A program made the translations under genes and the position numbers. The notes under the pieces are model-generated. The model saw only the letters and a program-made list of their open reading frames with translations, was not told where the DNA came from and made no database searches. A stretch of DNA of 38,542 nt, taken from a virus. This document shows positions 404 through 14,356 of this stretch, one piece after another. Location: the IMG/VR virus record IMGVR_UViG_3300045256_000082, positions 1 to 38,542 of that record. One strand, written 5' to 3'. Position 1 is the first letter of the stretch; each line of letters opens with the position of its first letter.

Positions 404-434
404 GTCACCTTCAGAGACAGGGTTGCCCCGCGCC

Positions 435-782: not shown

Positions 783-1687
783 GGCCCGCCCATCTCACTG
801 GCCGCGGCCAAGCGGAACGCTTCCGCAGCGGCGACGTTCGCCTCGCGCCCGTTCGCAACCCGGAACGCGACCTGTGCAGCCGACAGCCCTTTGCGGGCGA
901 GGTAGCCTTTTCCGTTTTCCATTTCGACGAAGCGCCGGCGGTTCTCGACGACGTACGCCGGATGATGAAAGAGATGGATGACGCCAGTGGCGAAGCGGCC
1001 CGTCTTCCGCCTCACGCCGTAGCGCAGCATGCGGAGACAAAGGTCATTATCCTCCCATCCCCACCCGATATATGAGCTATCAAAACCGTCTATGGCCGTA
1101 AGGTCGAGCTTCCACATGGCGAGGTTGCACGCCATGAACTTTTTCCAATCCTGTCGCGAGCCGCGGCGCAACGGGCCAAGTGGAAGTGTGATCAGCGGCG
1201 CAAGTCTGTTCACCTGACCCGTGAGGCGCGCCGCGATCCAGCGCAGCATGCCCCAATCCTCCGGCGGCACGCACTTGTCGCTCAGCACAAGGTCGGTCAA
1301 CTTCTCTCTGAGCATGACTCTGTTGCCCTGCACAAAATAGCCGTGCTCGGCGAGGCGGCGATGCGCCGCGACGAACCCTTCGCGCGGGATACAATCGCCG
1401 TCCAAAAAGATGAGATACTGTCCGCTCGAAGCGATCACAGCCTTGTTGCGGATCGCGGCGACGCGGAACCCGTTATGCTCTTGCCACACGTGATCGACGT
1501 TCAGACCCTTGCGCCTGAAATCGTCGACCACTGCGCGGGTGCGCGCGTCAGTTCCGTCTTCAGCGACAATGACTTCGAAGTTTCTGTCGGTTTGGTAGGT
1601 CAGACCATACAGCACAGCGCGAAGCGCCTCTGGCCAATTGTAGGTCGAAACAATTACCGAAATTCTCCCGTTGAACCTTGTGCCCAT
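779..1687 (-). CDS. Family 2 glycosyltransferase (GT-A fold)
   Basis: A protein of about 302 residues that should transfer a sugar from a nucleotide-sugar donor. The GT-A N-terminus ISVIVSTYNWPEAL, the acidic pair EDGTD and the metal-binding FLDGDCIPRE are clear. The C-terminal stretch GFDSSYIGWGWEDNDLCLR is typical of galactosyltransferase-type GT2 enzymes. I start at the ATG at 1687 because GAGGGG lies five bases upstream; a GTG at 1711 is an alternative. The acceptor is not visible in the sequence: host surface glycan, a virion protein or modified DNA are all possible. No DNA hydroxymethylation gene is seen nearby, which makes DNA the least supported. Confidence 0.9.
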   Translation of the reverse strand: MGTRFNGRISVIVSTYNWPEALRAVLYGLTYQTDRNFEVIVAEDGTDARTRAVVDDFRRKGLNVDHVWQEHNGFRVAAIRNKAVIASSGQYLIFLDGDCIPREGFVAAHRRLAEHGYFVQGNRVMLREKLTDLVLSDKCVPPEDWGMLRWIAARLTGQVNRLAPLITLPLGPLRRGSRQDWKKFMACNLAMWKLDLTAIDGFDSSYIGWGWEDNDLCLRMLRYGVRRKTGRFATGVIHLFHHPAYVVENRRRFVEMENGKGYLARKGLSAAQVAFRVANGREANVAAAEAFRLAAASEMGGP

Positions 1688-1726
1688 TTTTTGCCCCTCA
1701 AACTTGTCCACAGCAGTGACCTTTTC

Positions 1727-1744
1727 TTCCTACACCTGTAGGAA
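1727..1744. promoter_or_regulatory. Palindromic TGTAGGAA operator
   Basis: TTCCTACA-CC-TGTAGGAA is a perfect 8-bp inverted repeat with a two-base centre, in the gap between the divergent glycosyltransferase and the rightward 86-residue gene. It is the cleanest dyad form of the TGTAGG element found across the window and suggests a dimeric binding protein. A weak leftward TTGAAC lies just beside it. Confidence 0.6.
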
Positions 1745-1771
1745 CCCCCGTTCAACAATTCGTTAAAAGAT

Positions 1772-1801
1772 TTGACACCATTATCTCGTCGTGCGTACCT
1801 T
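1772..1801 (+). promoter_or_regulatory. Candidate rightward promoter for the 1842-2685 island
   Basis: TTGACA at 1772-1777 and TACCTT at 1796-1801 are separated by 18 bases, the same spacing as the other promoter candidates here. The AAGAC seen after other -10 boxes is absent. It stands 41 bases before the first rightward start codon. Confidence 0.5.
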
Positions 1802-1841
1802 GCAACCGCGCGTACCCAACAACCAGCGGGAGTAACAAGGT

Positions 1842-2102
1842 ATGGGAGCGAAGTATCAAGCGACCTACGCACTGGTGGGCTACGGCATGACAGTCGAGAT
1901 CAGGTTTCGCGACGGGCGCGTTGCGAAGTGCCCCGCGCGGTTCAAACAAGTTCTCGGCTGGCCCATGACGCGCGTCATCAACTACTGCAGGGGGCAAGGG
2001 CTCAGGCTTCGACATCTCGAAGGCGTGGCGCTTCATAAGCCGCAATTTCGCAAAGCGCGCGAGTACACACCGGGCCGCGCCATCCCGTCGTTCGCCGGCT
2101 AG
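1842..2102 (+). CDS. Hypothetical protein, 86 residues
   Basis: I do not recognise this family. The protein is small and basic, has one pair of Cys (KCPARF and NYCRG) and no membrane segment. GGGAG lies a short way upstream of its ATG and a promoter candidate 41 bases upstream. Together with the next two frames it forms a short rightward island inside an otherwise leftward block. The next gene begins 10 bases after its stop, behind an AGGAGGGG ribosome site, so the island looks like one small operon. Confidence 0.6.
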   Translation: MGAKYQATYALVGYGMTVEIRFRDGRVAKCPARFKQVLGWPMTRVINYCRGQGLRLRHLEGVALHKPQFRKAREYTPGRAIPSFAG

Positions 2103-2111
2103 GAGGGGAAC

Positions 2112-2246
2112 ATGAGCGCTCGAAGACTGACACCACACGCCCGGATCATGGAAGTAGACGGGCTGCGGCTGTCCGCGTACCCGATACAATGCGGCGGCTG
2201 CGGCGGGGATGCCGAAAGGCAAGTACGTGAACGGCGTTCCGTTTGA
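2112..2246 (+). CDS. Short ORF with the first half of a zinc ribbon; possibly 5' part of the next gene
   Basis: A 44-residue frame with a strong AGGAGGGG site. It contains CGGC, the first Cys pair of a zinc ribbon, but no partner Cys pair. The partner (CPGC) is in the next frame, which begins at 2209 inside this one, one base out of register. The two meet at a GGGG run (2205-2208). Read together with one G removed, they give a single protein with CGGC and CPGC roughly 35 residues apart around a GW, the usual layout of small phage zinc ribbons. Either the gene is frameshifted or it uses a frameshift. Confidence 0.5.
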   Translation: MSARRLTPHARIMEVDGLRLSAYPIQCGGCGGDAERQVRERRSV

Positions 2247-2685
2247 ATTCTACCGCACCTACTTCTGCCGCAAAGGTTGGGAGGTGCACGCCGCCGGCAC
2301 ATCACGCGACACGTGCCCCGGCTGTGTGAAGAAAGCCGACGAGCTGCGCCGGCAACGCGCTTTAAGACACCAAGCGCAGCAGCAGAGACCACACCCGAAT
2401 ATCATCGCCGCCGCGCAGCCCGACGCCCCACAGCCAGAGTTTTTCTCATATCGCGATGTCAAAGAGCTACAGGCGAAGTTCAGCAGACGCGACCCCGACA
2501 ACATACGCCGCGAGATCAGATTGGTTGAACAGAGATTAGCCCGCCTGCGTATCGAGATAATGCCGTTTGAAGACGTCCCCAAGCCAGCTCCCCCGCCGCC
2601 GATACGTTTAGAACCCCGGAAGCGCCCGCGTCCGCCGCTGCATTTCTGGCTAGAACGCCTTCGGGTCAAAGCAGTGAACGCGTGA
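2209..2685 (+). CDS. Zinc-ribbon-like protein, probably C-terminal part of a split gene
   Basis: This 158-residue frame starts at an ATG inside the previous ORF. The first 40 residues contain YFCRKGWEVHAAG and DTCPGC, which look like the second half of a zinc ribbon. A basic helix follows, then a helical stretch (residues 75-120) and a proline-rich basic tail (PKPAPPPPIRLEPRKRPRP). Its ATG has no clear separate ribosome site. The 3' end overlaps the end of the opposing zincin gene by 36 bases. The function is unknown; nucleic-acid binding is an inference. Confidence 0.6.
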   Translation: MPKGKYVNGVPFEFYRTYFCRKGWEVHAAGTSRDTCPGCVKKADELRRQRALRHQAQQQRPHPNIIAAAQPDAPQPEFFSYRDVKELQAKFSRRDPDNIRREIRLVEQRLARLRIEIMPFEDVPKPAPPPPIRLEPRKRPRPPLHFWLERLRVKAVNA

Positions 2686-3003
2686 GACCTGTTGGCCTAG
2701 CTTGACGAACGCGGCGGTGTGCTGTGTCTCGTGGTGGTCGATCCGAACTTCCTTCTCGTACAGGTGTACCATCTCATGCGCCATGACACGCATCAGCATG
2801 TCGGTCGACCCCACGGTGTATTCCGAGATTGCGATGATGTGCTGACCGTCGATGCAGTCATACCAACCGAACAGCGTCCGGCTCTTGATCACGCGCCACG
2901 CGATGTCCTCTGACTCCGGCAGGTTCCAGCGATGGAAGGGCGGCGTCGTGCGAAGATAATCGTACGCCGCCGCAAGCGTTTCGCACGTCAGGGGCAGGCT
3001 CAT
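2650..3003 (-). CDS. SprT-like zinc metalloprotease (zincin)
   Basis: A 117-residue protein with the zincin motif HEMVH at residues 76-80 and a third likely zinc ligand at His95 (ETQHTAAF), as in SprT/Spartan-like proteins. Those enzymes cleave proteins on DNA, but the substrate here is unknown. I chose the ATG at 3003 because its ATGA overlaps the stop of the DNA polymerase, so the two are translationally coupled. It is shorter than cellular SprT and has no C-terminal zinc ribbon. Its last 36 bases overlap a gene on the other strand. Confidence 0.8.
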   Translation of the reverse strand: MSLPLTCETLAAAYDYLRTTPPFHRWNLPESEDIAWRVIKSRTLFGWYDCIDGQHIIAISEYTVGSTDMLMRVMAHEMVHLYEKEVRIDHHETQHTAAFVKLGQQVSRVHCFDPKAF

Positions 3004-5063
3004 GCTTTCTTGTACCTTTCGCCGTCCCACGCACTGGCCGCGATCGGCAACCCTTCCGCCCACGCCGGCAGCTCGCACACGATCGCCTCGAATTCTTCGA
3101 GCGACCCGTGCGACACCGCGGGCTCCGCAACAGCTTCGTCGTGCACCGTGAGAATGATCGGGTAGCCGCGGCGCTCTAGGCGCTTCATCGCTTCGCGCAG
3201 AATGTCGCTTGCGATCCCCTGGTCGGCGTTCTCAGTCGTGAGACCGCCGTACGCGTAGCACGGCCCCCATTTGCGCGTGTAGCTGTCCTGTCCCTGATAC
3301 TCGACAACATCGCGCGGCTCGCTCGTGATCTCGATCTTGCCGGCGCGTTCCAACTCGACGGCACGCTCCCAAAGGATCGAGCGCGGGCGACCAAGATGGT
3401 CGCGTATCCATGCGAATTGAGCGATGCGCGGGTACGGGTAACAGATCGACCGGCCCGAAGGCAGCCGCATCCACAGGAAGCTGCCGGCGGTGCGCCACGC
3501 GAGCACACCGGACTTCACGATCTTGCCCGGATGCTGCACGGCGTACAGTTGCGCGTCCTCAATGTCGCGCCACATGTCCGTCACGCGGGGATGGGCTTGC
3601 CGCCACTTCCGCTTCCATTCGTCGGCGGTCTTTGCGTCGAGCTTGATCTTGTACGCGGCGGCCATTGACTGCAGAGCGGACACGCCGCCCTCATAGCCAA
3701 GCGCCAGCTCTTGCACCTTGCCGCCTTGCCGCTGGTCTTTGGTGACTTGCTCAACCGGAATTCCGAACGAGCGCGCCCACGCCAGGATGTATAGGTCGGG
3801 ACCGGTGCCGGCGTCATAGTCGCGGAACGCCTGCAGCTTCCAGTCCTCACCCGCCATCCACGCAAGGATTCGGCCTTCAATGTTCGCGAAGTCGGCCGCC
3901 ATGATGCGGCGACCCTTGGCCGCCGTGATCATGCCGCGCAGACAATCGCCGACGACTGACAGCGGCTCGCCATATTGGCGGACGACTTCGATGTCGCCGG
4001 TCGCAACGGCCTCGATCGCTTCGTCGATCTCGCCTTCCTTCAGCTGCGGGCGCTTGATGTTCTGAGGCTGGAAGCGACGGCCCGCCCAACGACCGGTAGA
4101 CGCGGCGTGGAATTGCAGCAGCCCACGAGCGCGGTTGTCGTGCGAGCGGCCAAGCAGCAGCGCCTCAATCTTCTTCACGCTTGCCTTGGCGGCTTCGCGC
4201 CGGAGCTCAAGCGCGCGGCGCACGTGATCGGGAAGATCCAAGCCAAGCAGCTCGTCGATCGCCTGCTTGTCTAATCCGTCCGTCTGCCAACCCCGCAAGC
4301 GCAACCATTCAGCCAGGCGCACGACATTGGAGCACTTCTCGACGTGCCCGCCCGTGACTTCTCGCATCTCTTCGTCGAGCAGATCGGCGGCTTGGTCGAC
4401 GATCTGCAACGCGGCGAGGCACAGCGCCGTGTCGACATAGACGCCGCGGTCGTTGATGATCTGGTCGAGCCACCACGTTTGTTGTTCGGACGGCGACAGC
4501 GGCAGCAGCCGCTCGTGCAGCTTGCGCTCAACCTCGACGTCGTTCTTGCAGTAGGCATAGAGGCGCTGTTTGCGGGCGTCGTCGTCGAACCAATAAATGC
4601 CGTCCGGGTTCTCACCTTTACGCGGCCGGCGCGGCTTCGCCATTTGCATCATGAGCGCGCGCCCGCCCATGTCCTTCCCGATCTCGACACCGGCGACCGC
4701 TGCCGCATTGCTCAATGCGGCAGGCAACGACATGGCCAGAGCGCACGCCATCGTGCAACGCCATTGCGTGAGCTTCGGGATTGGCCACCCGTAACGCGGG
4801 CCAAGGATGCCGCGCCACATGACCCGCTCGAAAGCGGCGTTGTGCGCGATGATCTGCCAGCCTTCACGAACCGCGGACTGAACGGCGAGAGGCGCTTCTG
4901 CACGACCCGCCGGAATCCATAGCCCGATTGGCTCGTCGTCGACGGCGTACGCCGCGCACCAAACATCGGTCGTCGGATCGGCGGCGTAGCGATACACGCC
5001 GGACTTGGGAAGATCGACGGTCGAGCGCGATTCAAGATCGATGTGTAACGTGTGTACCGACAT
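3000..5063 (-). CDS. Family A DNA polymerase with 3'-5' proofreading exonuclease
   Basis: The 687-residue replicative polymerase. Exonuclease motifs: D9/E11 (LHIDLES), N75-F78 (AHNAAFE) and Y171-D175 (YCKND). Polymerase motif A is D391 (AADFANIEGR), motif B is R445-K449 up to LGYEGG, and motif C is H641-D642-E643 (TVHDEAVAE). The 5'-3' exonuclease domain of bacterial Pol I is absent, as usual in phage. The start ATG sits directly behind a TGTAGGAA element that also supplies the stop codon of the upstream gene. It should work with the primase-helicase at 14357 and the ssDNA-binding protein at 8255. Confidence 0.97.
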   Translation of the reverse strand: MSVHTLHIDLESRSTVDLPKSGVYRYAADPTTDVWCAAYAVDDEPIGLWIPAGRAEAPLAVQSAVREGWQIIAHNAAFERVMWRGILGPRYGWPIPKLTQWRCTMACALAMSLPAALSNAAAVAGVEIGKDMGGRALMMQMAKPRRPRKGENPDGIYWFDDDARKQRLYAYCKNDVEVERKLHERLLPLSPSEQQTWWLDQIINDRGVYVDTALCLAALQIVDQAADLLDEEMREVTGGHVEKCSNVVRLAEWLRLRGWQTDGLDKQAIDELLGLDLPDHVRRALELRREAAKASVKKIEALLLGRSHDNRARGLLQFHAASTGRWAGRRFQPQNIKRPQLKEGEIDEAIEAVATGDIEVVRQYGEPLSVVGDCLRGMITAAKGRRIMAADFANIEGRILAWMAGEDWKLQAFRDYDAGTGPDLYILAWARSFGIPVEQVTKDQRQGGKVQELALGYEGGVSALQSMAAAYKIKLDAKTADEWKRKWRQAHPRVTDMWRDIEDAQLYAVQHPGKIVKSGVLAWRTAGSFLWMRLPSGRSICYPYPRIAQFAWIRDHLGRPRSILWERAVELERAGKIEITSEPRDVVEYQGQDSYTRKWGPCYAYGGLTTENADQGIASDILREAMKRLERRGYPIILTVHDEAVAEPAVSHGSLEEFEAIVCELPAWAEGLPIAASAWDGERYKKA

Positions 5064-5071
5064 TTCCTACA
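5064..5071 (-). promoter_or_regulatory. TGTAGGAA element overlapping the polymerase start
   Basis: On the minus strand TGTAGGAA is directly followed by the polymerase ATG. It contains the TAG stop of the upstream gene, and its AGGA can serve as ribosome site. A protein bound here, on DNA or mRNA, could control polymerase synthesis; that part is inference. Confidence 0.45.
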
Positions 5072-5450
5072 CAGCGGTCAAAATAAAAGACAAAGCCGCG
5101 TCGAAAGAGTCGAGAACAGCATGGCTGTGATACCTCAACCATGGGCTGACGGAAGCCCCTTTCTTCGCCACCACGACAACCAACTTTCCAGCGTTGAAAG
5201 CGAGAAGCACTTCCATACTGGTGCCAACGCTTGGCTTGTCATAATTGACGAGAATCACGTCACTGTTCGCGATATCAATTTTGTCGAATTCAACAATCTC
5301 ATCCACGCACTGATCCTCGCGCCCGCGATAATCGCGCCGCATCGGGTCCAGTGTTTTCCCTGACCACTTCGCCTTTACTAGCTCGCGCCAATCTTTGCAC
5401 TCGTCATCAGTGCACCCATTGATTGGCCCGCAAAGGTAGATGGTTTTCAT
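5067..5450 (-). CDS. Nucleoside 2-deoxyribosyltransferase-like protein
   Basis: A 127-residue protein. The N-terminal IYLCGPI, the DIANSDVILVNYDKPS stretch and GTSME, where Glu80 would be the catalytic nucleophile, match the nucleoside 2-deoxyribosyltransferase superfamily. These enzymes swap or remove the base of deoxynucleosides. The start at 5450 has a good AGGAGA ribosome site. It lies between the DpdA-like gene and the polymerase, and a second member of the same fold is at 6950-7321. The substrate is unknown; base exchange, nucleoside hydrolysis or salvage are possible. Confidence 0.8.
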   Translation of the reverse strand: MKTIYLCGPINGCTDDECKDWRELVKAKWSGKTLDPMRRDYRGREDQCVDEIVEFDKIDIANSDVILVNYDKPSVGTSMEVLLAFNAGKLVVVVAKKGASVSPWLRYHSHAVLDSFDAALSFILTAV

Positions 5451-5464
5451 CTTTCTCTCCTGTT

Positions 5465-6181
5465 TTAGGCAAGCATGCACATCATCGTGATGCGCGCTGT
5501 CCACTCCGCAGCTTCGCGCCAATCATTCTGGTTTCGACCGTTTCGCCGGGCGGCGAAGGACCAAGCCATGCTGTCGGCGCTATGAAGAAGATTGATTACG
5601 GTGGCGCTGGTTAGGGCTGTTATCTTGACGCCAAACCCATGCAGCAACAGGTCTGGCCGTTTGCTCTTGATCGCAACCAGAATGCTTTCGATAGTCCCTA
5701 CGTTCGCGTTCCGCTTACAAACAGAACCGACACCCACATACATCCCAGGCTTAAGCCGATCCTCGTATTGATCGATATGATCGAGATAGTCGACCACCTC
5801 GTAGCCCTGCAGAACCAGCATGATGTAGGTGCGCGGCACGAGCGGCAGCAAGGCGTCATACCGCTCGATCGTTCGGCGCTGATGTTCTCGAACGGACAAA
5901 CCCGTCTTCGCTACGATCCACGGCTCGCACATCCAATCCTGTGAAACAGCCGCGACTAAACCGGAGCCCGGGTATGACCACCGATTGATCTCAGCCGCGT
6001 ACTCACCCACGCCATGGCGATACTTCCCGTGCGTGGCGATTTCCGTGAACGCGCCAGAGTCCATGATCCATTCGCGTGCTTGGATGGGCTTCTTTCGGTC
6101 CCGCAGCCGGTTTACCGATATGAAAGCTCTGTCAAAGTGCCCTGCATCGGATGGCTGATGCAGCCCGGTGTAGAACAGCAT
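5465..6181 (-). CDS. dpdA: DpdA-like DNA-guanine transglycosylase (7-deazaguanine DNA modification)
   Basis: A 238-residue protein resembling phage DpdA, a relative of tRNA-guanine transglycosylase that replaces guanine in DNA with a 7-deazaguanine base. Features seen: MDSGAF at 40-45, QDW at 81-83, QGYEVVDYL at 125-133, VGVGSVCKR at 149-157, HGFGVK at 181-186 and SADSMAW at 201-207. In DpdA phages this modification blocks host restriction enzymes. No preQ0-synthesis genes (FolE, QueD, QueE, QueC) are in the window, so the precursor would come from the host or from genes outside. It follows the diphosphohydrolase gene by 8 bases. The ribosome site is weak. Confidence 0.85.
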   Translation of the reverse strand: MLFYTGLHQPSDAGHFDRAFISVNRLRDRKKPIQAREWIMDSGAFTEIATHGKYRHGVGEYAAEINRWSYPGSGLVAAVSQDWMCEPWIVAKTGLSVREHQRRTIERYDALLPLVPRTYIMLVLQGYEVVDYLDHIDQYEDRLKPGMYVGVGSVCKRNANVGTIESILVAIKSKRPDLLLHGFGVKITALTSATVINLLHSADSMAWSFAARRNGRNQNDWREAAEWTARITMMCMLA

Positions 6182-6189
6182 GCGGCCGA

Positions 6190-6780
6190 CTATCTGGCCC
6201 CTCGCGGCTTCGACAAGCTCAGATCGCGTTCAAGTTCTTCCTGCAGCAGCGCGAGCGCGCGCCATGCGAGCTGCGCCGAATGCCGGTTGCCGTCCTGGTC
6301 GAAGCCGCCGCGTTCGGTCAGGTGACGCGCGATGCAGTCGGCGTGATCCATCGACTTGCCGCGCGCCCAATGCAGCGGTTGGCCGGGGTTGTGCTTCTCA
6401 TTCCCGCGATGGCTGATGTTGGAAACTGAAGCGAGCGCGTCGGGGAAATAGTCAAGCAGGCCGGAACACATCGGCATGAGCTTGCGCAAGTCGCTGTCGG
6501 TGTCGAGCAAACGCTTTGGCGGGACTTCTTCGCCGCCGTAGCTATGCGCCAACTCGGGCGCCTTCCCGGCTTGGCGTTCGGCTTCGCGTTGCTCATCAAA
6601 ACGGTCGATTGTCTTCTGTGAAGGCATGTGATTGGTCCACCAAGTGAGTTCGGAGCGGTCGATTTCGACCAGCGTTCCGGGCGGCATGATCGAGCCGTCC
6701 GGGTACATTCCGGCCATCGCGCAGATCAGTTCGTATTGGCGTTCGCGGGTCACGCGGTGTTGCCCTTGTTGTGGTTCCAT
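6190..6780 (-). CDS. dATP/dGTP diphosphohydrolase-like protein (DUF5664 type)
   Basis: About 196 residues. The C-terminal half (KHNPGQPLHWARGKSMDHAD, then RHLTERGGFDQDGNRHSAQ and AWRALALLQEELE) is the helical, His/Asp/Glu-rich domain annotated as dATP/dGTP diphosphohydrolase N-terminal domain in phages. It would alter the purine dNTP pool during replication. The ATG at 6780 has GAGGA upstream; a GTG at 6753, overlapping the previous stop as GTGA, is an equally possible start. It lies directly before the DpdA-like gene, consistent with a nucleotide and DNA-modification cluster. The exact nucleotide handled cannot be told from sequence. Confidence 0.8.
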   Translation of the reverse strand: MEPQQGQHRVTRERQYELICAMAGMYPDGSIMPPGTLVEIDRSELTWWTNHMPSQKTIDRFDEQREAERQAGKAPELAHSYGGEEVPPKRLLDTDSDLRKLMPMCSGLLDYFPDALASVSNISHRGNEKHNPGQPLHWARGKSMDHADCIARHLTERGGFDQDGNRHSAQLAWRALALLQEELERDLSLSKPRGAR

Positions 6781-6947
6781 CGCAGCGCTTCCTCTGCAGC
6801 TCGCCGCAAGTCCGCCATGCGCCCGCGCAGCGCTTTCCGTTGGCGCCACCCTTCGAGCGTCGAGAGATCACACGCGGCGATCTGCGCGTGCGTATCGATG
6901 ATCTCTTTGAACAGCGGCGGGATACGCTGCGGGGCGTTGGTGAACAT
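6750..6947 (-). CDS. Small helical hypothetical protein
   Basis: A 65-residue protein, mostly helical and charged (WRQRKALRGRMADLRRAAEEAL), with no recognised family. Its ATG lies two bases after the stop of the deoxyribosyltransferase-fold gene, and its end overlaps the start of the diphosphohydrolase-like gene, so it sits in one tightly packed operon. A helper or oligomerisation role is possible but nothing in the sequence shows it. Confidence 0.6.
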   Translation of the reverse strand: MFTNAPQRIPPLFKEIIDTHAQIAACDLSTLEGWRQRKALRGRMADLRRAAEEALRWNHNKGNTA

Positions 6948-6949
6948 GA

Positions 6950-7321
6950 TCAGCCCGGATAATCGAGGCCGCGGATCGGGACGACAGTCAGGCACAGCGC
7001 GTCAGCGGTGGCCTTCTCGGCGATTGCGCCTTTGCTGTTCTCCCAACCGGGCAGCAGCGCGATCCCTTCGGCTTCCGCACAAATCCACGCCAAGTCCATG
7101 CCAAGCGCTTCGCGCAGACTGAACCCGTAATTGGAGGCGGCGACACTCTCGTCACCGGTCGGGTTGTTCTTCGAGATGTCGGTGCCGTGTCGCTCGTTGT
7201 CCTTCTCGGCGGGGTTGAACACCACGTGTCCATCTTCGCGCAGTATCTTCGCGGCGGCGTGGAACGCCGGGAAGTTGAACTCAGGAATCCCCCTCATGGG
7301 GCCGGCAAGGTAGACCTTCAT
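6950..7321 (-). CDS. DUF4406-type deoxyribosyltransferase-fold protein
   Basis: A 123-residue protein with the typical start MKVYLAGPMRG, then FNFPAFHAAA, GHVVFNPAEKD and, near the C-terminus, GAIAEKATA, where Glu102 is in the position of the deoxyribosyltransferase nucleophile. DUF4406 proteins are common in phages and have no settled function. It is a distant relative of the 5067-5450 protein; the pair flank the diphosphohydrolase and DpdA-like genes. The start ATG lies just after the stop of the GcrA-like gene, with GGAGA upstream. Confidence 0.85.
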   Translation of the reverse strand: MKVYLAGPMRGIPEFNFPAFHAAAKILREDGHVVFNPAEKDNERHGTDISKNNPTGDESVAASNYGFSLREALGMDLAWICAEAEGIALLPGWENSKGAIAEKATADALCLTVVPIRGLDYPG

Positions 7322-7322
7322 G

Positions 7323-7664
7323 TCATTCTCCGTTCTGGTCGAGTTCGCCGACCAATCTGATAAGGTGTTCGGTTGGCTCGCGGCGTGCCATCGACTCGAT
7401 GGAAAAGCGCACGTTGCTACGCACGTAGCCGCGTCCATCGGTGTGGCGTGCCCTGCCTATGAGGGTGATGCTGCGGTCGGTGCCGTAGATCATCGCCTCA
7501 AGAGCCCGTAGGCTCTTGCTGCTCTTGCCGCGGTGGTAGCGGGCTTTGCACTCAGGGCAGTACGGTTCGCCCTGTGCAGCCGGCGCGCCGCAGAAGAAGT
7601 GCGGCGGCCCCGCGGTCAGCGGGCCGCGGCACTCGCGCGGCCCCAACTCCAAGATTGTGAACAT
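7323..7664 (-). CDS. GcrA-like sigma-interacting domain protein lacking the DNA-binding half
   Basis: A 113-residue protein. Residues 10-45 (RECRG, HFFCGAP, GEPYCPECKARY; Cys12, 25, 36, 39) match the C-terminal domain of alphaproteobacterial GcrA, usually CRWPIGDP-FCG-PYC-AY. In GcrA this domain contacts domain 2 of sigma70. The N-terminal helix-turn-helix of cellular GcrA is missing; a different basic domain follows instead. It may therefore bind host RNA polymerase without GcrA's own DNA sites; this role is inference. The ATG overlaps the previous stop as TGATG. The four Cys might also form a plain zinc site. It is the best marker of host class here. Confidence 0.75.
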   Translation of the reverse strand: MFTILELGPRECRGPLTAGPPHFFCGAPAAQGEPYCPECKARYHRGKSSKSLRALEAMIYGTDRSITLIGRARHTDGRGYVRSNVRFSIESMARREPTEHLIRLVGELDQNGE

Positions 7665-8035
7665 CACGCCCCGACGGAGTTCTCAAGTCGGGTAACCGCG
7701 CTCTGCAAATCCTGCAGCGCATAGCCGAGATACTGCACCGTCGTCATGATGGCGCCGATCTGGCCGTTGACCGGAGGCGGCGGGACCGGGGCGTCTTTCT
7801 CTTGCAGCGTGTTCACCTCGCCGACGAGCAGATCGGTCACATTCGAAACACGTGCGCGATACTGGCGAACCATTTCGGTCGCGGCGCCAAGCGCGCGATC
7901 GATATCGGCCAAGTGGGAATGTGACTTCGCCGCCGGCGCGACGGTGCGGCTCGCCTTGTCGTAGGCGTACGTCTCAGCTTCCGCATCCACTGCCGCCTGC
8001 GCGCCGGCGGCGGCTCCGTTAACTCGTCCGTACAT
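7664..8035 (-). CDS. Hypothetical helical protein
   Basis: A 123-residue protein with no family that I recognise. Residues 35-80 and 90-120 look like long helices separated by a proline stretch (APVPPPPVNG), suggesting two coiled-coil segments. Both ends overlap the neighbouring genes as TGATG, so it is part of the continuous leftward operon. The role is unknown. Confidence 0.65.
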   Translation of the reverse strand: MYGRVNGAAAGAQAAVDAEAETYAYDKASRTVAPAAKSHSHLADIDRALGAATEMVRQYRARVSNVTDLLVGEVNTLQEKDAPVPPPPVNGQIGAIMTTVQYLGYALQDLQSAVTRLENSVGA

Positions 8036-8250
8036 CACGATCTCTCCGCTCGCGCCAACAGATCAATCACGACCGGTCGCCAGTTGGCGAAGCGCCGGAG
8101 CGAGACGCGTTTCCATCCTTTGCGGGGATGCAGATAGTGGACGTAGCCGACGGACAGCTTGACGCTGACCGCCGACGACGGAATGAAGTGGTTCCAGACA
8201 GAAGCGAACGCGTCGAACTGAGTGCTGAACCGGAACCACGGGGCGAGCAT
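8035..8250 (-). CDS. Hypothetical protein, 71 residues
   Basis: A small basic protein rich in Trp, Phe and Tyr (APWFRFSTQFDAFASVWNHF, VGYVHYLHPRKGW). It belongs to no family that I can name. The ATG at 8250 is preceded by GGAAG at good spacing, right after the ssDNA-binding gene. The stop overlaps the next start as TGATG. Given its position, a replication accessory role is possible but unproven. Confidence 0.6.
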   Translation of the reverse strand: MLAPWFRFSTQFDAFASVWNHFIPSSAVSVKLSVGYVHYLHPRKGWKRVSLRRFANWRPVVIDLLARAERS

Positions 8251-8254
8251 GGGC

Positions 8255-8875
8255 TTACTTCCACATGTCATCGGCTGAGATCGGCGCGCCGCCGCCGGAC
8301 GCAGGTGCGCCGACGTCGACAGCGTCAAAGCCGCTGTTGGTTTCCATGCGACCGCCGACGATCACTTCGTCGTGGTCGAGCAGCTGCACGCGCTGCAGTC
8401 CGAGGGAAATCCCTCGACCTTCGTTGTCGAAAGCGTACGGGCGCACGGTCACCACAGCCCATCGACCCGAATAGATGTCGGATGGATCACCGGTGAAGCG
8501 CTGCGCGTCCGGGCCAAAGATGAAGGGCGGATAATCGGCGCCGGTGCTGGTGCGCGCGAACCACGGGAACGCTTCGGCGTACTCCGTGAGCTTGGCGTCG
8601 TCGACGCTCTTGATCAGCGGATTGCGAAGGTTCTTCTTCTGCCAATCCTGCCCGAACCGGGCGACCGCGACGTCCACCATCATCTTCTTGAGCACGTCGA
8701 GATTCGCGGCGGCCGGGATCAGGACCGTCGTGCTGTGCTTCTTCGGCGCGTCGGGGCTGCGGTTCTTCTTGAACGCTTTCGCCGTCAGCAGCGAGTCCGG
8801 CCATACGAGTCGGCCCTTCGGCAGATGAATCTCGTCGGTCTTCTCGTTGTACCAAGCGGTCAACAGTTTGCTCAT
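8255..8875 (-). CDS. Enc34/DUF2815-type single-stranded DNA-binding protein
   Basis: A 206-residue protein matching the DUF2815 (Enc34) ssDNA-binding family: the N-terminal VWPDSLLTAKAF, the DNPLIKSVDD-type centre and the DIYSGRWAVVTVRPYAFDN strand region are typical. It should coat single strands during replication and recombination. The C-terminus is flexible and Gly/Ala-rich and ends with acidic and aromatic residues (DDMWK), like other SSB tails. Residues 182-188 (GFDAVDV) match a peptide also present in the Cas4-like nuclease and the primase-helicase. The start ATG follows a TAGGAAATAGAGGAT element. Confidence 0.88.
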   Translation of the reverse strand: MSKLLTAWYNEKTDEIHLPKGRLVWPDSLLTAKAFKKNRSPDAPKKHSTTVLIPAAANLDVLKKMMVDVAVARFGQDWQKKNLRNPLIKSVDDAKLTEYAEAFPWFARTSTGADYPPFIFGPDAQRFTGDPSDIYSGRWAVVTVRPYAFDNEGRGISLGLQRVQLLDHDEVIVGGRMETNSGFDAVDVGAPASGGGAPISADDMWK

Positions 8876-8876
8876 A

Positions 8877-8891
8877 TCCTCTATTTCCTAC
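8877..8891 (-). promoter_or_regulatory. TGTAGG-type element at the ssDNA-binding protein start
   Basis: On the minus strand GTAGGAAATAGAGGA ends two bases before the ATG. The same string, with the leading T, lies in the scaffold and small-array control regions. GAGGA works as ribosome site, so element and start site coincide. No -35 box is at the distance seen at the promoter copies. Confidence 0.45.
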
Positions 8892-8952
8892 TTTCTAGAC
8901 GTGCTTGATCCCAGCGAAGCACAACGCCGTCGTCCCCTTCGTGTTTTTGTTA

Positions 8953-9024
8953 GACCGGGGGCGGGGTTCGAACCCGCACATGCGCCTTATCACTGCGCTG
9001 CTCTACCTGTTGAGCTACCCCGGT
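8953..9024 (-). tRNA. tRNA-Ile (anticodon GAT)
   Basis: A full cloverleaf on the minus strand: acceptor stem ACCGGGG/CCCCGGT (7 bp), D stem GCTC/GAGC with a GG-containing loop, anticodon loop GTGATAA with GAT at 34-36, and T arm GCGGG-TTCGAAC-CCCGC. The anticodon stem has four pairs and an A-G mismatch next to the loop, and position 32 is G. CCA is not encoded. It reads ATC codons, which are frequent in these genes, so a supply role is unlikely to be the only reason; resistance to host anticodon cleavage is another possibility. Confidence 0.85.
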
Positions 9025-9052
9025 TGTTAGCGCGCGTTGGCCACGCCGCGCG

Positions 9053-9289
9053 CTAGCTGACGATCGTCTTCAGCTTGTCGACGACTTCGCCGGCCCTGAT
9101 CGCTTCGGCCTTCGCGATCTCGGCGTCGGTCTTCAGCTGTGCGGCTGCCACGAGCTTCGCTTCAGCAGCGTCAAGCTTGCTCTCGATCAGCGCCTCAAGC
9201 TTGCCGATCATCCAATGGAAGTCGGCGACAATTTCCTCGACGCTGTTGTGTCGCTTGAAGAACGCAACAGCACGCGACAGCATACTCAT
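9053..9289 (-). CDS. Small coiled-coil protein
   Basis: A 78-residue protein whose C-terminal two thirds (from KLEALIESKLDAAEAKL on) is a charged Ala-rich helix, very likely a coiled coil. The family is unknown. The start has AGGAAG and is preceded by a TGTAGGAAAAAGAGG element. It lies between the tRNA and a 146-residue gene of unknown function. Confidence 0.65.
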   Translation of the reverse strand: MSMLSRAVAFFKRHNSVEEIVADFHWMIGKLEALIESKLDAAEAKLVAAAQLKTDAEIAKAEAIRAGEVVDKLKTIVS

Positions 9290-9296
9290 GTCATCT

Positions 9297-9312
9297 TCCT
9301 CTTTTTCCTACA
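9297..9312 (-). promoter_or_regulatory. TGTAGG-type element at the coiled-coil gene start
   Basis: On the minus strand TGTAGGAAAAAGAGGA lies eight bases before the ATG of the 78-residue gene. GAGGA provides the ribosome site. It is the third case where this element and a start site coincide. No convincing -35 box is present. Confidence 0.4.
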
Positions 9313-9335
9313 CTGCAGGCGTGCGAAGGCCGGGC

Positions 9336-9776
9336 TTAGGCGCGCAACGCCTTCAGCACCGCGTCGCGCTCGGCTTGGCTGGTGTTGGACGCCAACGTGG
9401 CAATCGTGTCCTTCTTGACTTCGAACTTCGTCTCGGTGCGGACGACGTCGTAGTAGTTGCCGTAGCCGGCCTGAATGTCGAACTTCTTGCTGCCGTACGG
9501 GAACCTGCGGTTCAGCGCGTCGCGCAGCGCGATCATGTCGTCGGTCTTGATGTTCACGCTGACCGCAGACGACCCGTTGTAGAGATGAAAGCTCGTGTTG
9601 TCCGAACCGGCGGACAGCTCGATATAACCGCCCTTGTTGCTGTTGACGGGCGCCGGGCTGATCGCAACGCTCTCATATCCGGTAGACACTTTCGGGGTAC
9701 ACATCGTCTTCGCTCCGTGTTGTGCCGCAACCTTCATGCTGCGGCGGTTGTAGAACGCGTTAAGCGTGGTGATCAC
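9336..9776 (-). CDS. Hypothetical protein, 146 residues
   Basis: A protein of unknown family with a beta-rich middle (GGYIELSAGSD, SFHLYNGSSAVSVNIK) and a helical C-terminus (SQAERDAVLKALRA). The start is uncertain. GTG at 9776 overlaps a TGA as GTGA and keeps coding-like codons, while ATG at 9704 has a better ribosome site (GGAG, eight bases away) and would give 122 residues. It lies in the leftward replication block. Confidence 0.6.
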   Translation of the reverse strand: MITTLNAFYNRRSMKVAAQHGAKTMCTPKVSTGYESVAISPAPVNSNKGGYIELSAGSDNTSFHLYNGSSAVSVNIKTDDMIALRDALNRRFPYGSKKFDIQAGYGNYYDVVRTETKFEVKKDTIATLASNTSQAERDAVLKALRA

Positions 9777-9791
9777 CAGCTCGTCATGGAC

Positions 9792-9848
9792 TCACATCCA
9801 ATCGACTGGGATCGCGTACACGTCTTGATTAAGAACGTGCGTTGTCAT
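9792..9848 (-). CDS. Possible 18-residue peptide
   Basis: The frame MTTHVLNQDVYAIPVDWM begins with an ATGA overlap on the stop of the upstream membrane-protein gene, the same arrangement used by most real gene pairs here. It fills the otherwise empty gap before the 146-residue gene. There is no ribosome site of its own, so it would depend on coupling. It could be chance. Confidence 0.3.
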   Translation of the reverse strand: MTTHVLNQDVYAIPVDWM

Positions 9849-10027
9849 CGGCGCCACGCCTTACCCGCTACGGCGAACACGCCGAAGATGACCAGGATCA
9901 ACCAGATGACTAAGGCGATCCCGCCCATGATCATCGGCAGGAACACAAGCCATGCCGGCAGCGCGGGCAAGACCGTGTACCATGCAACAAGTAGGGCGAT
10001 CTGCGTGACGAAGGGGATGAACTGCAT
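9845..10027 (-). CDS. Small integral membrane protein
   Basis: A 60-residue protein with two hydrophobic segments (about 4-30 and 33-55) separated by a short polar turn, and a basic C-terminal end (GKAWRR). The start overlaps the stop of the Cas4-like nuclease as TAATG. Small two-helix proteins can be holins, but this one is embedded in the replication operon with no endolysin beside it, so I leave the role open. Confidence 0.65.
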   Translation of the reverse strand: MQFIPFVTQIALLVAWYTVLPALPAWLVFLPMIMGGIALVIWLILVIFGVFAVAGKAWRR

Positions 10028-11259
10028 TAGCGTTCCTCTATCTCAACGGCCTCGAAGCCGCTCGCTTGGTTGACGTCAGCCGCCGGCCGCTTGTCGTCGA
10101 TCGGCGCCAGCACCACGCCGCCCATCGGCTTGACCGCAAGCTCATCCATCGCGGCCTTGCGCTCTTTGGGCGGGATCATCTTTTCGATCTTCGCCGGCGA
10201 CAGCAGCTCCGGCTCAGTGAATATCTCTTTGGGGTCGAGCCCGTGTTCCATCGTCAGGACGCCGGCGGCTTCCTTGGCGTTTCGCCAGCGGCGATGTGCT
10301 TTCTTCTCGACGAGCTTGAAGCCGGGCGGCACACGGCCGCGCAGCGCTTCAGCATGCGCGAAGGCTTCCACCGCCTTAACCCACGTCGCGATGAGCGGGG
10401 CAGCCTTCAGCTTGGCCGCGAGTTCTTCGGGGCTGTACTTCGCGGGATCGGCCATGCTGAATATCTCACTATCCTGCCAGGAGGCGCCGACGAGCTGGTA
10501 CACAGTGTCGGCCAAGGCTTTGCACGCCGGCGCGCGCCGGCAGAACTTGCACCACGAACCCGGGTTGAGCGTCGTATCGCCATCCGCGATCCGGTTGGCC
10601 GCGGCGCGCAGCGCCATCGCGTGCGCGAGCAGATCGTCGGACTCGAGCGTCCACCGTGAGGGACGGCTGCTCACGCGCGGCTGCACGACGATGACTTCAA
10701 TTTCGTCGACGCCGCGGTTGTGGTAGCGCGACGCGATGGCGAGCGCGTACGTCAACAGCTGCTCGTTCTCGGCGGCGTCGACCGTGATGCCGCGGCCATA
10801 TTTGAAGTCGATGACGACAACCTTCCGCGGAGCCGGGATGTAGGCAACGAAGTCGCCAAGGCCGCTCGTCACGCTGTCCGCGAATTCGGCGACGCTCAAG
10901 CGTTCCTCAACTTCGTACTCACACCCCGGCTCGGCGGCAATCCGGGCAACCTCGTCGAGATAGATTTGCACGCCGTCAATCATCTCTGCGTCGACGGCGA
11001 AATAGCGCATGCCGTCCGGCTCCGGCCCCATGGCGTAGATCGAGCGGAGCTTCACGTCGATGATGAAATGCTTGTAGACCTTCGGGTCGCGGTGCGGCCC
11101 GGTCAGGCAGTGTTCAGCAAAGAGATGCGCGGCGGTGCCTTCGTTGGCGAACGACGTCTCTTCACGCGGCAGACCTTCGTCCAGCGTGATCGAGCCGGGG
11201 CACTTCATCCATCGGTGTGCGTCCGATGGCTTGAGCCGCGCTTTTTTGACTTCGGTCAC
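10027..11259 (-). CDS. DUF2800 Cas4/AddB-like PD-(D/E)XK nuclease with Fe-S signature
   Basis: A 410-residue protein with a RecB-type nuclease core: E40-GTAAH45, GLGDF with Asp136, VVVIDFKYG with Asp151/Lys153, and Q167-xxx-Y171. Cys20, 237, 240 and 246 reproduce the one-plus-three Cys pattern of the 4Fe-4S nuclease domain in AddB and Cas4. Such enzymes trim DNA ends, probably in phage recombination. The start is GTG, overlapping the previous stop as GTGA. The last residues contain GFEAVEI (401-407), a peptide shared with the ssDNA-binding protein and the primase-helicase. Confidence 0.88.
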   Translation of the reverse strand: MTEVKKARLKPSDAHRWMKCPGSITLDEGLPREETSFANEGTAAHLFAEHCLTGPHRDPKVYKHFIIDVKLRSIYAMGPEPDGMRYFAVDAEMIDGVQIYLDEVARIAAEPGCEYEVEERLSVAEFADSVTSGLGDFVAYIPAPRKVVVIDFKYGRGITVDAAENEQLLTYALAIASRYHNRGVDEIEVIVVQPRVSSRPSRWTLESDDLLAHAMALRAAANRIADGDTTLNPGSWCKFCRRAPACKALADTVYQLVGASWQDSEIFSMADPAKYSPEELAAKLKAAPLIATWVKAVEAFAHAEALRGRVPPGFKLVEKKAHRRWRNAKEAAGVLTMEHGLDPKEIFTEPELLSPAKIEKMIPPKERKAAMDELAVKPMGGVVLAPIDDKRPAADVNQASGFEAVEIEER

Positions 11260-11441
11260 GACTTAGCCTCGTCCGGTTTCCGTTCCGTCACGCTGACGTC
11301 GAATTGGTTGAGGCCGCGGTTGACCATGGCGACGTGCGTCACTTTCGGCGACTTCCCCGGTGCGAATTGCGCGTCCAACCAGAATTGCAGCGCCTCAACC
11401 ATTGTCGCAGTATTCAGCTCCAGCTTGTTGCTACCGCGCAT
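11256..11441 (-). CDS. Hypothetical protein, 61 residues
   Basis: A small protein of unknown family that starts inside the end of the zinc-finger-like gene (11-base overlap) and ends in a GTGA overlap with the Cas4-like nuclease. The C-terminal half (VTHVAMVNRGLNQFDVSVTE) looks like two beta strands. Its tight coupling suggests that it is made together with the nuclease. Confidence 0.6.
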   Translation of the reverse strand: MRGSNKLELNTATMVEALQFWLDAQFAPGKSPKVTHVAMVNRGLNQFDVSVTERKPDEAKS

Positions 11442-11619
11442 CATCGTCCTCGTCCTGGTCGGCGCACACGCGCTCGACGCAATGGCAGTGCACGAGGTAC
11501 ATGCGCCCATGGGCTTCCGCCGTCTCGACTTTATCGTGCGACAAGATCACTTCGTCGCAGATCGGGCACTCGGCGTATTGATGTGGCTCGATATGCTGGT
11601 CGAGACTGACGTCGGCCAT
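11431..11619 (-). CDS. Small zinc-finger-like protein
   Basis: A 62-residue acidic protein with CPIC, then a His-rich middle and HCHC, a probable zinc site (Cys18, Cys21, then His/Cys about 25 residues on). The C-terminus is strongly acidic (ADQDEDDDAR). The family is not known to me. It lies in a run of short overlapping genes upstream of the nuclease. Confidence 0.6.
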   Translation of the reverse strand: MADVSLDQHIEPHQYAECPICDEVILSHDKVETAEAHGRMYLVHCHCVERVCADQDEDDDAR

Positions 11620-11625
11620 GTGGCG

Positions 11626-11877
11626 TTACTCCGAAGCGCTGCGACCTTCGACGGTCACGCACTCCGTCTCGATTGCGAATTGCTTGCCGGCCAGCTGGGC
11701 GCTCAGATATTCAGCAAGCTTCGCAAGCTCGTCCTGCAGCTCCGGCGACTTACGGAACGCCTCGCACGCGCGCGCTGTTGGGAACGTGTCCTTATACTGG
11801 AACGTCTCCACCGGATCGTCGTTCTGCACGCCGTTGCTGAACAGATAGAGCAACGCGACTAGAATTGTGAACTTCAC
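11626..11877 (-). CDS. Small protein with N-terminal signal or membrane segment
   Basis: An 83-residue protein starting at GTG behind GGAGG. The first 15 residues (MKFTILVALLYLFSN) are hydrophobic and look like a signal peptide or anchor. The rest is polar with two Cys (ACEAF and TECVTV) that could form a disulfide outside the cytoplasm. An exported role, such as superinfection exclusion, would fit but is only a guess. Its start lies inside a candidate overlapping frame (11792-12007). Confidence 0.6.
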   Translation of the reverse strand: MKFTILVALLYLFSNGVQNDDPVETFQYKDTFPTARACEAFRKSPELQDELAKLAEYLSAQLAGKQFAIETECVTVEGRSASE

Positions 11878-12007
11878 TGAACGCCTCCATTCTTGTCCAT
11901 CCGCGCCACGCGCGGCAGGACGTTGGGAATTCTCCGTTATGCTTCCAGGGGAAGCCGCCGGCGCAGCAGCCGCAGCATGCGGCGCCGGACCACGGGCAAA
12001 GCGTCAC
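11792..12007 (-). CDS. Candidate Cys-rich protein overlapping the signal-peptide gene
   Basis: This 71-residue frame starts at a GTG that overlaps the previous stop as GTGA, the usual junction here. It fills 126 bases that would otherwise be empty. It is Cys- and Trp-rich (CPWSGAACCGCCAGGFPW). Its last 86 bases overlap the 11626-11877 gene in another frame, which is unusual for this genome. It could be real, or GC-rich chance. Confidence 0.35.
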   Translation of the reverse strand: MTLCPWSGAACCGCCAGGFPWKHNGEFPTSCRAWRGWTRMEAFSEVHNSSRVALSVQQRRAERRSGGDVPV

Positions 12008-12276
12008 GGCAACAGCGCGAGCGCACCACCGTATGTCCCGCCGTTCAGCGCGGCGTTTTCGAGAGGGCGCGGAATGTCGAAGTAGACCAACACGCCATCG
12101 GCGCGCACGCCCTTTCCTTCCCAAGGGCCGCCATCCACGTGCGTGAACCCGTGCGCTTTCATGTAGCGTGCCACGAGGCAGTCTGACGCAGCGGTGTATT
12201 GGTAGAACGTTTCCGGGTCCTGCTGCCGCAGCCAATGCTTGAAATGCGGAATGTCGATCCTGTTTCTGTCGCTCAC
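12004..12276 (-). CDS. Hypothetical protein, 90 residues
   Basis: A protein of unknown family with many aromatic and His residues (PHFKHWLRQQDPETFYQYTA, AHGFTHVDGGPWEGKG). The start is GTG in a GTGA overlap with the preceding gene and the stop is in a GTGA overlap with the next frame. It belongs to the run of short genes read from the 13.2-kb promoter. Confidence 0.6.
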   Translation of the reverse strand: MSDRNRIDIPHFKHWLRQQDPETFYQYTAASDCLVARYMKAHGFTHVDGGPWEGKGVRADGVLVYFDIPRPLENAALNGGTYGGALALLP

Positions 12277-12491
12277 TGCACAACTCCTATATGCTCACCG
12301 ACATGTTCGTGCTCTTTCCGCCACGTCAACGCGTGCACGATGGCGTTGACACTTTCTCGATCTGAGCGGGCGCGAACCGCGGCGCTCGCGATCTCGTGGA
12401 CATCGATTGCATCTAAGGTCAGCCCGGGATGTCGGGCCGCCTGCATGATCGCGTCCGCCCAGAAGACGAATGATTTGTTACGCCGTGCCAT
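12273..12491 (-). CDS. Hypothetical protein, 72 residues
   Basis: A small helical protein (VFWADAIMQAARHPGLTLDA, then IASAAVRARSDRESVNAIVHAL) with several His near the C-terminus. No family is recognised. Its ATG lies 14 bases inside the end of the 182-residue gene, so translation is coupled. Confidence 0.6.
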   Translation of the reverse strand: MARRNKSFVFWADAIMQAARHPGLTLDAIDVHEIASAAVRARSDRESVNAIVHALTWRKEHEHVGEHIGVVQ

Positions 12492-13026
12492 CGATGTACG
12501 GCTGCAGCTCAGCCTTGAAGGCTGCGTATTGTGTTTCCTTCAGATCGGAGACCTTCGTGACGTTCCATTTCTGGAATAGTGGCGTGACCTTCGCGACACC
12601 CTGCTCAAGCGTCTGACCGCGCTTGGCGACAGCGGCGTTGTACGCGCGCACTGCAGCGCGCACGTCTTCGAGCGTGACAGGTGCTTCGGCTTTCGGAGGC
12701 TCGTCGCCGAGATCGGCGAGGAAATCGACAGAGCTGTCAAGCGTGCCGTCGACCGGCGCGTCTGCCTCCGGCACCGGATCGGTGGCCGCGACCTTGTTGG
12801 CCTTCGGCTTGGTCGTGCGTGTCTTGCGGACATCCTTCGTGGGCTCGCCGGTCAGCGGGCTTGTCTGCGCGTCGAGCTGCGGCGCCGTCGCCGGGGCGGG
12901 CGTCACAACCGGAGCGCTCTGCGGCGCCTGCCGCGGCTGCACTGCGCGGGCAATCAGCCCAAGCGCATTGAAGGCTTCCTCAACGAACCGCTGCGGAGTG
13001 TCGCCGCTGACTTCAAGCTTGATCAT
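12478..13026 (-). CDS. Hypothetical protein with Pro/Ala linker, 182 residues
   Basis: The first 30 residues form a short folded part (IKLEVSGDTPQRFVEEAFNA). A low-complexity Pro/Ala/Thr/Lys linker follows (about 30-110), then a helical C-terminal domain (LEDVRAAVRAYNAAVAKRG, VTPLFQKWNVTKVSDLKETQ). C-terminal domains of this shape occur at the end of various phage recombination and replication proteins, but I cannot name the family. It is the second gene behind the promoter at 13.23-13.26 kb. Confidence 0.65.
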   Translation of the reverse strand: MIKLEVSGDTPQRFVEEAFNALGLIARAVQPRQAPQSAPVVTPAPATAPQLDAQTSPLTGEPTKDVRKTRTTKPKANKVAATDPVPEADAPVDGTLDSSVDFLADLGDEPPKAEAPVTLEDVRAAVRAYNAAVAKRGQTLEQGVAKVTPLFQKWNVTKVSDLKETQYAAFKAELQPYIDGTA

Positions 13027-13033
13027 TCGATCC

Positions 13034-13198
13034 TCACCGTTTGGTTGCCCAATAGAGGGCGTAGGCAAGCGCCGCGATGGCGCCGACATAGACGCAGACC
13101 ACGAGGAACCAAACGAGTGCGAGAAACAGCAGAGCAGCGACGAGCGCGGCGAGAACGAGTGCCACACCGGCGATGACACTGAGGATTGTTTCGAGCAC
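13034..13198 (-). CDS. Small membrane protein, 54 residues
   Basis: A frame starting at GTG with AAGGG nicely spaced upstream. Almost the whole protein is hydrophobic (ILSVIAGVALVLAALVAALL onward), enough for two membrane helices, and it ends with ATKR. It is the first gene after the leftward promoter at 13.23-13.26 kb and stops seven bases before the next start. The role is unknown; a holin-like or host-membrane function is possible. Confidence 0.65.
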   Translation of the reverse strand: MLETILSVIAGVALVLAALVAALLFLALVWFLVVCVYVGAIAALAYALYWATKR

Positions 13199-13218
13199 CT
13201 TGGTCCCTTCCGTCTTGT

Positions 13219-13258
13219 TGTAGGTCTAAGCGTCCTACAGAACCTACACGCTTGTCAA
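13219..13258 (-). promoter_or_regulatory. Leftward promoter with TGTAGG operator
   Basis: On the minus strand TTGACA (13253-13258), an 18-base spacer and GACGCT (13229-13234) followed by TAGAC match the promoter form seen at several rightward operons. The spacer holds the direct repeat TGTAGGTTCTGTAGGA (13233-13248) and CCTACA follows (13219-13224), making a dyad around the -10. It should drive the leftward replication operon. Confidence 0.7.
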
Positions 13259-13292
13259 ATTTTTTTTTAGTTCGCTCGCCCCGCATGCTTAA

Positions 13293-13409
13293 TCACTGAA
13301 GGCCGATCACTTGCGCCAACTTGGCGAAAGACAGGACAAATAGGGCGATCGGCAGCAGCAGACATACAACGCCACACCCAACGATCAGACCGGTTTTCAC
13401 AGTATCCAT
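13293..13409 (-). CDS. Small single-pass membrane protein, 38 residues
   Basis: A frame with a single membrane segment (LIVGCGVVCLLLPIALFVLS) between a short polar N-terminus and an amphipathic C-terminus. The ATG lies 13 bases inside the end of the 94-residue gene upstream, so it is likely co-translated. No family is recognised. Confidence 0.5.
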   Translation of the reverse strand: MDTVKTGLIVGCGVVCLLLPIALFVLSFAKLAQVIGLQ

Positions 13410-13681
13410 GCCAGCATGATCCCTTCGAGGGTGTCGGGCTCGTGCACGACCTTGTGCGCCGCCTCTTTGATGTACGTGCTCGTGGCCGCTTCGGCTAAGC
13501 ACTCCAACTCATGCTTAGTTAGCGAATTGATCGGGCGCTTCACGTTGGTGCCGTTGTCCTTCAGCCACTTCACCATGGCTTGCGCGCACTTGGTGCGAGT
13601 CTCATCGCACCACATGTCGTCGCGACTCCACGGGCGCGGCGGTAGCGCGTCGTTTCTTCGGCGGCTTCGCTTCTTGGGCAT
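13397..13681 (-). CDS. Hypothetical protein, 94 residues, start inside the resolvase gene
   Basis: A basic N-terminus (PKKRSRRRND) and a helical remainder with two Cys, family unknown. The ATG at 13681 has an exact GGAGG eight bases upstream but lies 80 bases inside the resolvase gene. An ATG at 13615 would reduce the overlap to 14 bases but has a poorer ribosome site. The stop overlaps the start of the 38-residue membrane protein. Confidence 0.6.
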   Translation of the reverse strand: MPKKRSRRRNDALPPRPWSRDDMWCDETRTKCAQAMVKWLKDNGTNVKRPINSLTKHELECLAEAATSTYIKEAAHKVVHEPDTLEGIMLAWIL

Positions 13682-14135: not shown

Positions 14136-14198
14136 TCGCCCACCGTGTTGTTGACGTTGCCGCGGCTCTTTACGCGCGGTCCCCTCTATGTCGATCTA

Positions 14199-14243: not shown

Positions 14244-14298
14244 CGCGCCGTCCGCACTCTTAAAATACGGATAACGGCGAAGCGCAAAATGCGCTTAT

Positions 14299-14328: not shown

Positions 14329-14356
14329 TAGGTCAATCATCCTTTCGAGGCGTTTA

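Follow-up and report, generated by a model that had tools for sequence, protein, structure and literature searches.

The window analysed here, which comprises the whole stretch of 38,542 nucleotides of the viral record IMGVR_UViG_3300045256_000082, contains on its minus strand a short gene of the GcrA family encoding only the sigma-interacting domain (SID) of GcrA, followed by a basic tail (Table 1). The ATG start codon shares its A with the TGA stop codon of the upstream gene (TGATG, 7666-7662), and phage genes that are coupled in translation are arranged with stop/start overlaps of this type. As the start is coupled to the upstream stop, the N-terminal half of GcrA is absent from the protein rather than missed. 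Of the six frames, the gene frame is the only one with a positive mean codon score (+0.06); the scores of the others range from -0.17 to -0.92. GC3 amounts to 0.79, and codon usage fits the gene frame alone in the N-terminal domain and the tail alike. The open reading frame 7664-7323 is a genuine, intact gene. It sits in a leftward block along with replication and nucleotide metabolism genes. The 124 amino acid protein encoded upstream gave weak matches only, and no GcrA DNA-binding domain was found in it.

Table 1. Features of the SID-only gene and its direct neighbours in the window
Feature	Position	Strand	Remarks
SID-only GcrA-family gene	7323..7664	minus	113 aa from ATG 7664; 114 aa from in-frame GTG 7667
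GcrA sigma-interacting domain	7530..7664	minus	about residues 1-45; aligned to C. crescentus GcrA 106-152
Basic C-terminal tail, 69 aa, residues 45-113	7326..7529	minus	pI 10.35
Cys 1 of putative metal site, in C-R-G-P	7629..7631	minus	host GcrAs: C-[KRC]-W-P
Cys 2, 3, 4: CG-x8-YC-x2-C	7548..7592	minus	His at fourth position in host GcrAs read
Upstream gene, 124 aa	7664..8038	minus	stop overlaps SID start (TGATG)
Downstream gene, DUF4406 / nucleoside 2-deoxyribosyltransferase-like	6950..7321	minus	

Between positions 3000 and 11259 of the same strand, genes for a DNA polymerase, a Gp2.5-like ssDNA-binding protein and an exonuclease are present. Their relative order is the same as in Bordetella phage BPP-1 (bbp42, bbp40, bbp38), which suggests that the replication module is related to that of BPP-1. 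A DpdA-type queuine/7-deazaguanine DNA modification transglycosylase (PF23859, E 6.5e-43) is encoded at 5465-6181 on the minus strand and shows up to 58% identity with its homologues in Rhizobium and Sinorhizobium phages.

The best Pfam family for the 113 amino acid protein was PF07750 (GcrA; E 2.5e-4), with a match to positions 101-143 of the 155 profile positions only. The score of 21.9 bits is below the curated whole-protein cut-off of 26.9 bits, as expected for a partial domain. When the single protein was compared with 11 host GcrAs by hhalign (probability 96.1, E 3.5e-9), only columns 92-146 of 165 were aligned, which are exclusively SID columns; with five SID-type proteins as the query, a probability of 98.4 (E 5.7e-15) was obtained. 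When genomes were scanned with a three-row alignment headed by the 113 amino acid protein, seven loci were returned, all from Thalassospira. The GcrA motif was present in each of these, and the five that were translated are full-length GcrAs. Out of 289 genomes from the class to which Thalassospira belongs, at least 132 were matched at E<=1e-4 by a SID profile built from five stretches, which is a lower bound as at most 18 candidates per genome were scored. The CxWP...CG...YCxxH motif of GcrA was found in all 30 loci returned by the SID profile, and in the loci printed in full the N-terminal helix-turn-helix was mostly present, too. The core pattern CG...YCxxC occurs once in the window and in none of 100 shuffles, a weak control as the pattern was derived from the same sequence. 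With the 113 amino acid protein alone as the query, no relatives were found in the collection of viral contigs.

GcrA is described to consist of a DNA-binding domain (residues 1-45), a linker (46-107) and the SID (108-173), which binds sigma2 (PMC7403470). Fold, spacing and the C..P..CG..G..YC pattern of the SID of Caulobacter crescentus GcrA (5YIX; 7YE1/7YE2) are common to the 113 amino acid protein, whereas the linker and the N-terminal DNA-binding domain, which recognises m6A-modified GANTC, are absent from it. Furthermore, no second match to PF07750 at E<=1 was found in the 38.5-kb record. The original prediction of a GcrA SID without its DNA-binding half is thus borne out by the confinement of the PF07750 and hhalign matches to the SID and by the lack of a second match in the record. 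As judged from the sequence, the first about 45 residues are the SID of GcrA, detached from its DNA-binding half.

An AlphaFold2 model was built from a 13-row alignment with host GcrAs among its rows. The block-mean pLDDT is 85-91 for residues 1-40 and decreases to about 50 in the tail. With VIA-align, residues 1-46 of the model were superimposed on GcrA residues 106-152 in 5yix_B (Z 5.5, rmsd 2.0, 45 aligned residues), the GcrA SID bound to sigma70 domain 2. Only three of 286 solved chains reached Z>=2 against the model, and all of them are GcrA SIDs (besides 5yix_B, 7ye2_G and 7ye1_G, with Z values of 4.7 and 4.4). A Foldseek search with the complete model yielded no match at E<=0.001, nor did GcrA appear in the 50 rows listed. 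As AlphaFold2 may have been trained on 5yix and the alignment contained host GcrAs, fold match and homology are not independent lines of evidence. Thus, the model lends support, albeit not as independent proof, to a SID fold of the N-terminal domain, and the proposed structural comparison with GcrA pointed to the SID and not to a simple zinc ribbon, with Z>=2 for GcrA chains only.

The stand-alone SID is a real architecture but not one found only here, as at least three other phage lineages share it. SID-only proteins are encoded by Rhizobium phage RHph_N65 (EVC08_040, an annotated gene of 74 amino acids), by the Microcystis-labelled phages Mwe-JY07 and JY25 (75 amino acids, identical in both; WWT39834.1 in Mwe-JY07) and by the IMG/VR locus L040 (78 amino acids, TGATG start). 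PF07750 has one match each in the RHph_N65 and L040 records, confined to the SID, and the A2 alignment profile has one match in Mwe-JY07. The start of the Mwe-JY07/JY25 gene overlaps the upstream stop as well. In the proteins of RHph_N65, Mwe-JY07 and L040, which share 31-33% identity with the 113 amino acid protein, the start codon likewise lies right before the SID. A further locus, L021, resembles the SID-only genes and was left out of their count since its contig ends at its start. A viral pattern scan yielded 39 loci, eight with a GcrA SID by reading (L021, L028, L032, L034, L040, L045, L052 and L054) and 31 without. None of six DNA polymerase relatives had a SID. The count excludes H89 (MW202785), whose weak match (E 0.5) extends across two genes of opposite orientation. 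No paper on SID-only phage proteins was recognised in the literature as judged from titles and abstract openings.

In L040 (747-1588), the SID-only gene is directly followed by the gene of an MT-A70 adenine methylase (E 4.5e-28). The SID gene shows stop/start overlaps on both sides, including that of the methylase. GcrA depends on m6A, and in view of this the adjacency of a GcrA fragment and an N6-adenine methylase gene is suggestive.

Full-length phage GcrAs are common compared with the SID-only forms. The C. crescentus SID as query returned 30 phage records, 26 of them from Caulobacter phages. GcrA homologues have been described in phiCbK (gp222; PMC3556154), Atu_ph08 (gp5; PMC6630229) and Y17 (ORF4/5; PMC11836647), and RHph_X2_24 and Ssp-JY42 likewise carry phage-borne members of the family; several of these carriers have alphaproteobacterial hosts. 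Unlike the 113 amino acid protein, the GcrAs of phiCbK, RHph_X2_24 and Ssp-JY42, which were translated here, retain the N-terminal DNA-binding half, while those of Atu_ph08 and Y17 are compared as given in their published descriptions alone. Caulobacter phage GB2A (OR260089.1) encodes two separate GcrA-like proteins at 28952-29269 and 17998-18561 (L116, L114). Its gp060 is a GcrA consisting of the DNA-binding half only (PF07750 2-87, E 5.7e-8), whereas the C-terminus of gp048 weakly resembles a SID (E 0.043); phages RW, RLK and KcrB have a gp048 of the same sequence.

The most likely function of the 113 amino acid protein, put forward tentatively, is that the stand-alone SID docks on sigma2 and caps the place of GcrA on the host holoenzyme. 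The domain would fold round one metal ion and, like the SID of GcrA, dock on domain 2 of the host primary sigma factor. Once docked, it would occupy the place of GcrA on the holoenzyme without bringing the recognition of methylated DNA. As the outcome, host promoters that depend on GcrA/CcrM would be expressed less, and/or RNA polymerase would carry the phage tail. Crl of E. coli provides a conceptual parallel, as it is described as a sigma2-binding factor working without DNA contact (PMC6917491), although it is unrelated to the 113 amino acid protein and its target is sigmaS.

Alternatively, but with clearly less confidence, the protein could be an activating adaptor, nearer to GrgA/RbpA than to a competitor, whose SID docks on sigma2 while the basic tail contacts DNA or a phage protein and the holoenzyme is recruited to phage promoters. 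The properties of the tail fit this proposal in part: it is mildly basic (13 K+R versus 9 D+E; pI in Table 1) and coding-like (codon score +0.127), and it is modelled with moderate confidence as a helix and three strands (block-mean pLDDT 75-84 over its residues 21-50). However, neither the phage collection nor the PDB sequences contained a recognisable relative of the tail, in agreement with the predicted basic tail without a known family, and no recognised DNA-binding fold was found for it, the comparison of its model with solved chains being uninformative, as the matches to PAS-like or beta-sheet chains were weak (best Z 4.9) and 475/999 chains reached Z>=2. In addition, the SID-only relatives have short tails which cannot be aligned with the 69 amino acid tail, and sigma70-type promoters are not in excess. 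The weak -10 promoters to which host RNA polymerase had been suggested to be steered did not stand out from chance, with 3 promoter-like sites in positions 1-19000 versus 4.3 +/- 2.2 in shuffles.

A further reading, judged rather unlikely, is that the domain descends from a SID but has lost sigma binding with the changes of Trp to Gly and His to Cys, and now serves as a small metal-binding module for another partner. The four cysteines claimed for the domain are present at positions 13, 26, 37 and 40 (P0001 numbering of the protein). The CxWP Trp and the fourth-position His of the putative metal site occur in 37/37 host GcrA loci (near-identical sequences from Thalassospira and a duplicated genome are part of this set); C. 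crescentus GcrA has CKWP and His, whereas the 113 amino acid protein has CRGP and Cys and the tail in addition. As read from the hhalign alignment, nine of the 14 SID positions invariant in the 11 host GcrAs are kept and five are altered (Trp96 to Gly, Pro101 to Ala, Phe106 to His, His123 to Cys, and Ala127 not kept), a divergence that also weighs against the sigma2 docking proposed above. The Trp position is also occupied by Ala in RHph_N65, Arg in L003 and Asp in L021; L040 has Phe together with Cys, and Mwe-JY07 retains both Trp and His. Arguing against a loss of binding, C, P, C-G, G, Y-C and the first Leu are kept, and the Trp is likewise lacking in several GcrAs of phages whose N-terminal half is complete (Tyr in L028/L034/L054, Phe in L045). 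Thus, due to the loss of the CxWP Trp and other host-invariant residues, sigma binding by this SID cannot be assumed, but we regard it as likely.

Decay of a once full-length phage GcrA to the short gene seen here is improbable. The A2 profile reaches linker-like columns when the sequence is read through the upstream stop, a weak signal as the profile contains the same sequence, and it is countered by the clean TGATG start, the intact codon signal in SID and tail, the complete, different gene upstream and the recurrence of the short form as an intact gene in further phages, among them the annotated genes of 74-75 amino acids. That the domain is an ordinary zinc ribbon without relationship to GcrA is highly improbable, since the weak Pfam matches to zinc-binding families (E 0.02-0.33) are outdone by GcrA in Pfam, hhalign and fold comparison alike and no ribbon chain reached Z>=2 among the 286.

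The host of the window phage is likely alphaproteobacterial, because RHph_N65 comes second among the named relatives listed for the DNA polymerase as well as for the terminase, and Rhizobium/Sinorhizobium phages lead the matches for DpdA. GANTC is the site of CcrM. In the window, 71 GANTC sites are observed versus about 177 expected from dinucleotides; under a codon-aware null (synonymous-codon shuffle of 30 window ORFs), 55 are observed versus 68.7 expected (z -2.3), and GANTC is the sixth lowest of 16 palindromes. This depletion under the codon-aware null adds little support for the alphaproteobacterial host. GANTC depletion was rejected as evidence for the SID gene, as it is as strong in phages lacking a SID match as in 11 that have one (0.02-0.43; one-sided Mann-Whitney P = 0.36). 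Among the seven phages used for comparison, the values are 0.18 (RHph_TM3_3_3), 0.19 (phiLM21), 0.01 (Mae-Yong1326-1) and 0.12 (Pam1), and for the other three 0.55-0.86 (MW202898, BPP-1, PspYZU01), BPP-1 and PspYZU01 being taken as controls by host and without a SID search. GANTC is nearly absent from RHph_N65 (MN988536.1; 4 vs 243 expected), RHph_X2_24 (MW960031.1; 4 vs 190) and Mae-Yong1326-1 (OP028995.1; 1 vs 153), all expectations being derived from dinucleotides. GANTC depletion has been described for about half of 33 pelagiphages (PMC9516812). GcrA domains are also present in the cyanobacterial-host-labelled phages Mwe-JY07 (PP395639.1), Mwe-JY13 (PP438406.1), Pam5 (ON014757.1) and Ssp-JY42 (PP438432.1), in which GANTC is the most depleted of 16 palindromes (0.17-0.35 of expected), and alphaproteobacteria may be the real hosts of these phages.

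Taken more widely, it is possible, though doubtful, that phages with relatives among those of alphaproteobacteria repeatedly took GcrA apart and that the free SIDs of the 113 amino acid protein, RHph_N65, Mwe-JY07/JY25 and L040 act as sigma70 caps which shut down or redirect the GcrA/CcrM programme of cell-cycle transcription, with GB2A having a separate DNA-binding-only GcrA and a SID-like protein. As RHph_N65, with Rhizobium phaseoli as its recorded host, encodes the SID in 74 residues, this proposal is directly testable. In the review PMC7403470, phage-encoded sigma regulators are described as repressors that act at sigma region 4, and factors directed at sigma2 as cellular activators. A GcrA SID standing on its own would be a sigma2-directed factor from a phage, namely a host cell-cycle regulator stripped of its DNA-reading half, and, if the cap reading is true, such proteins would form a new class of phage host takeover proteins that target sigma2.
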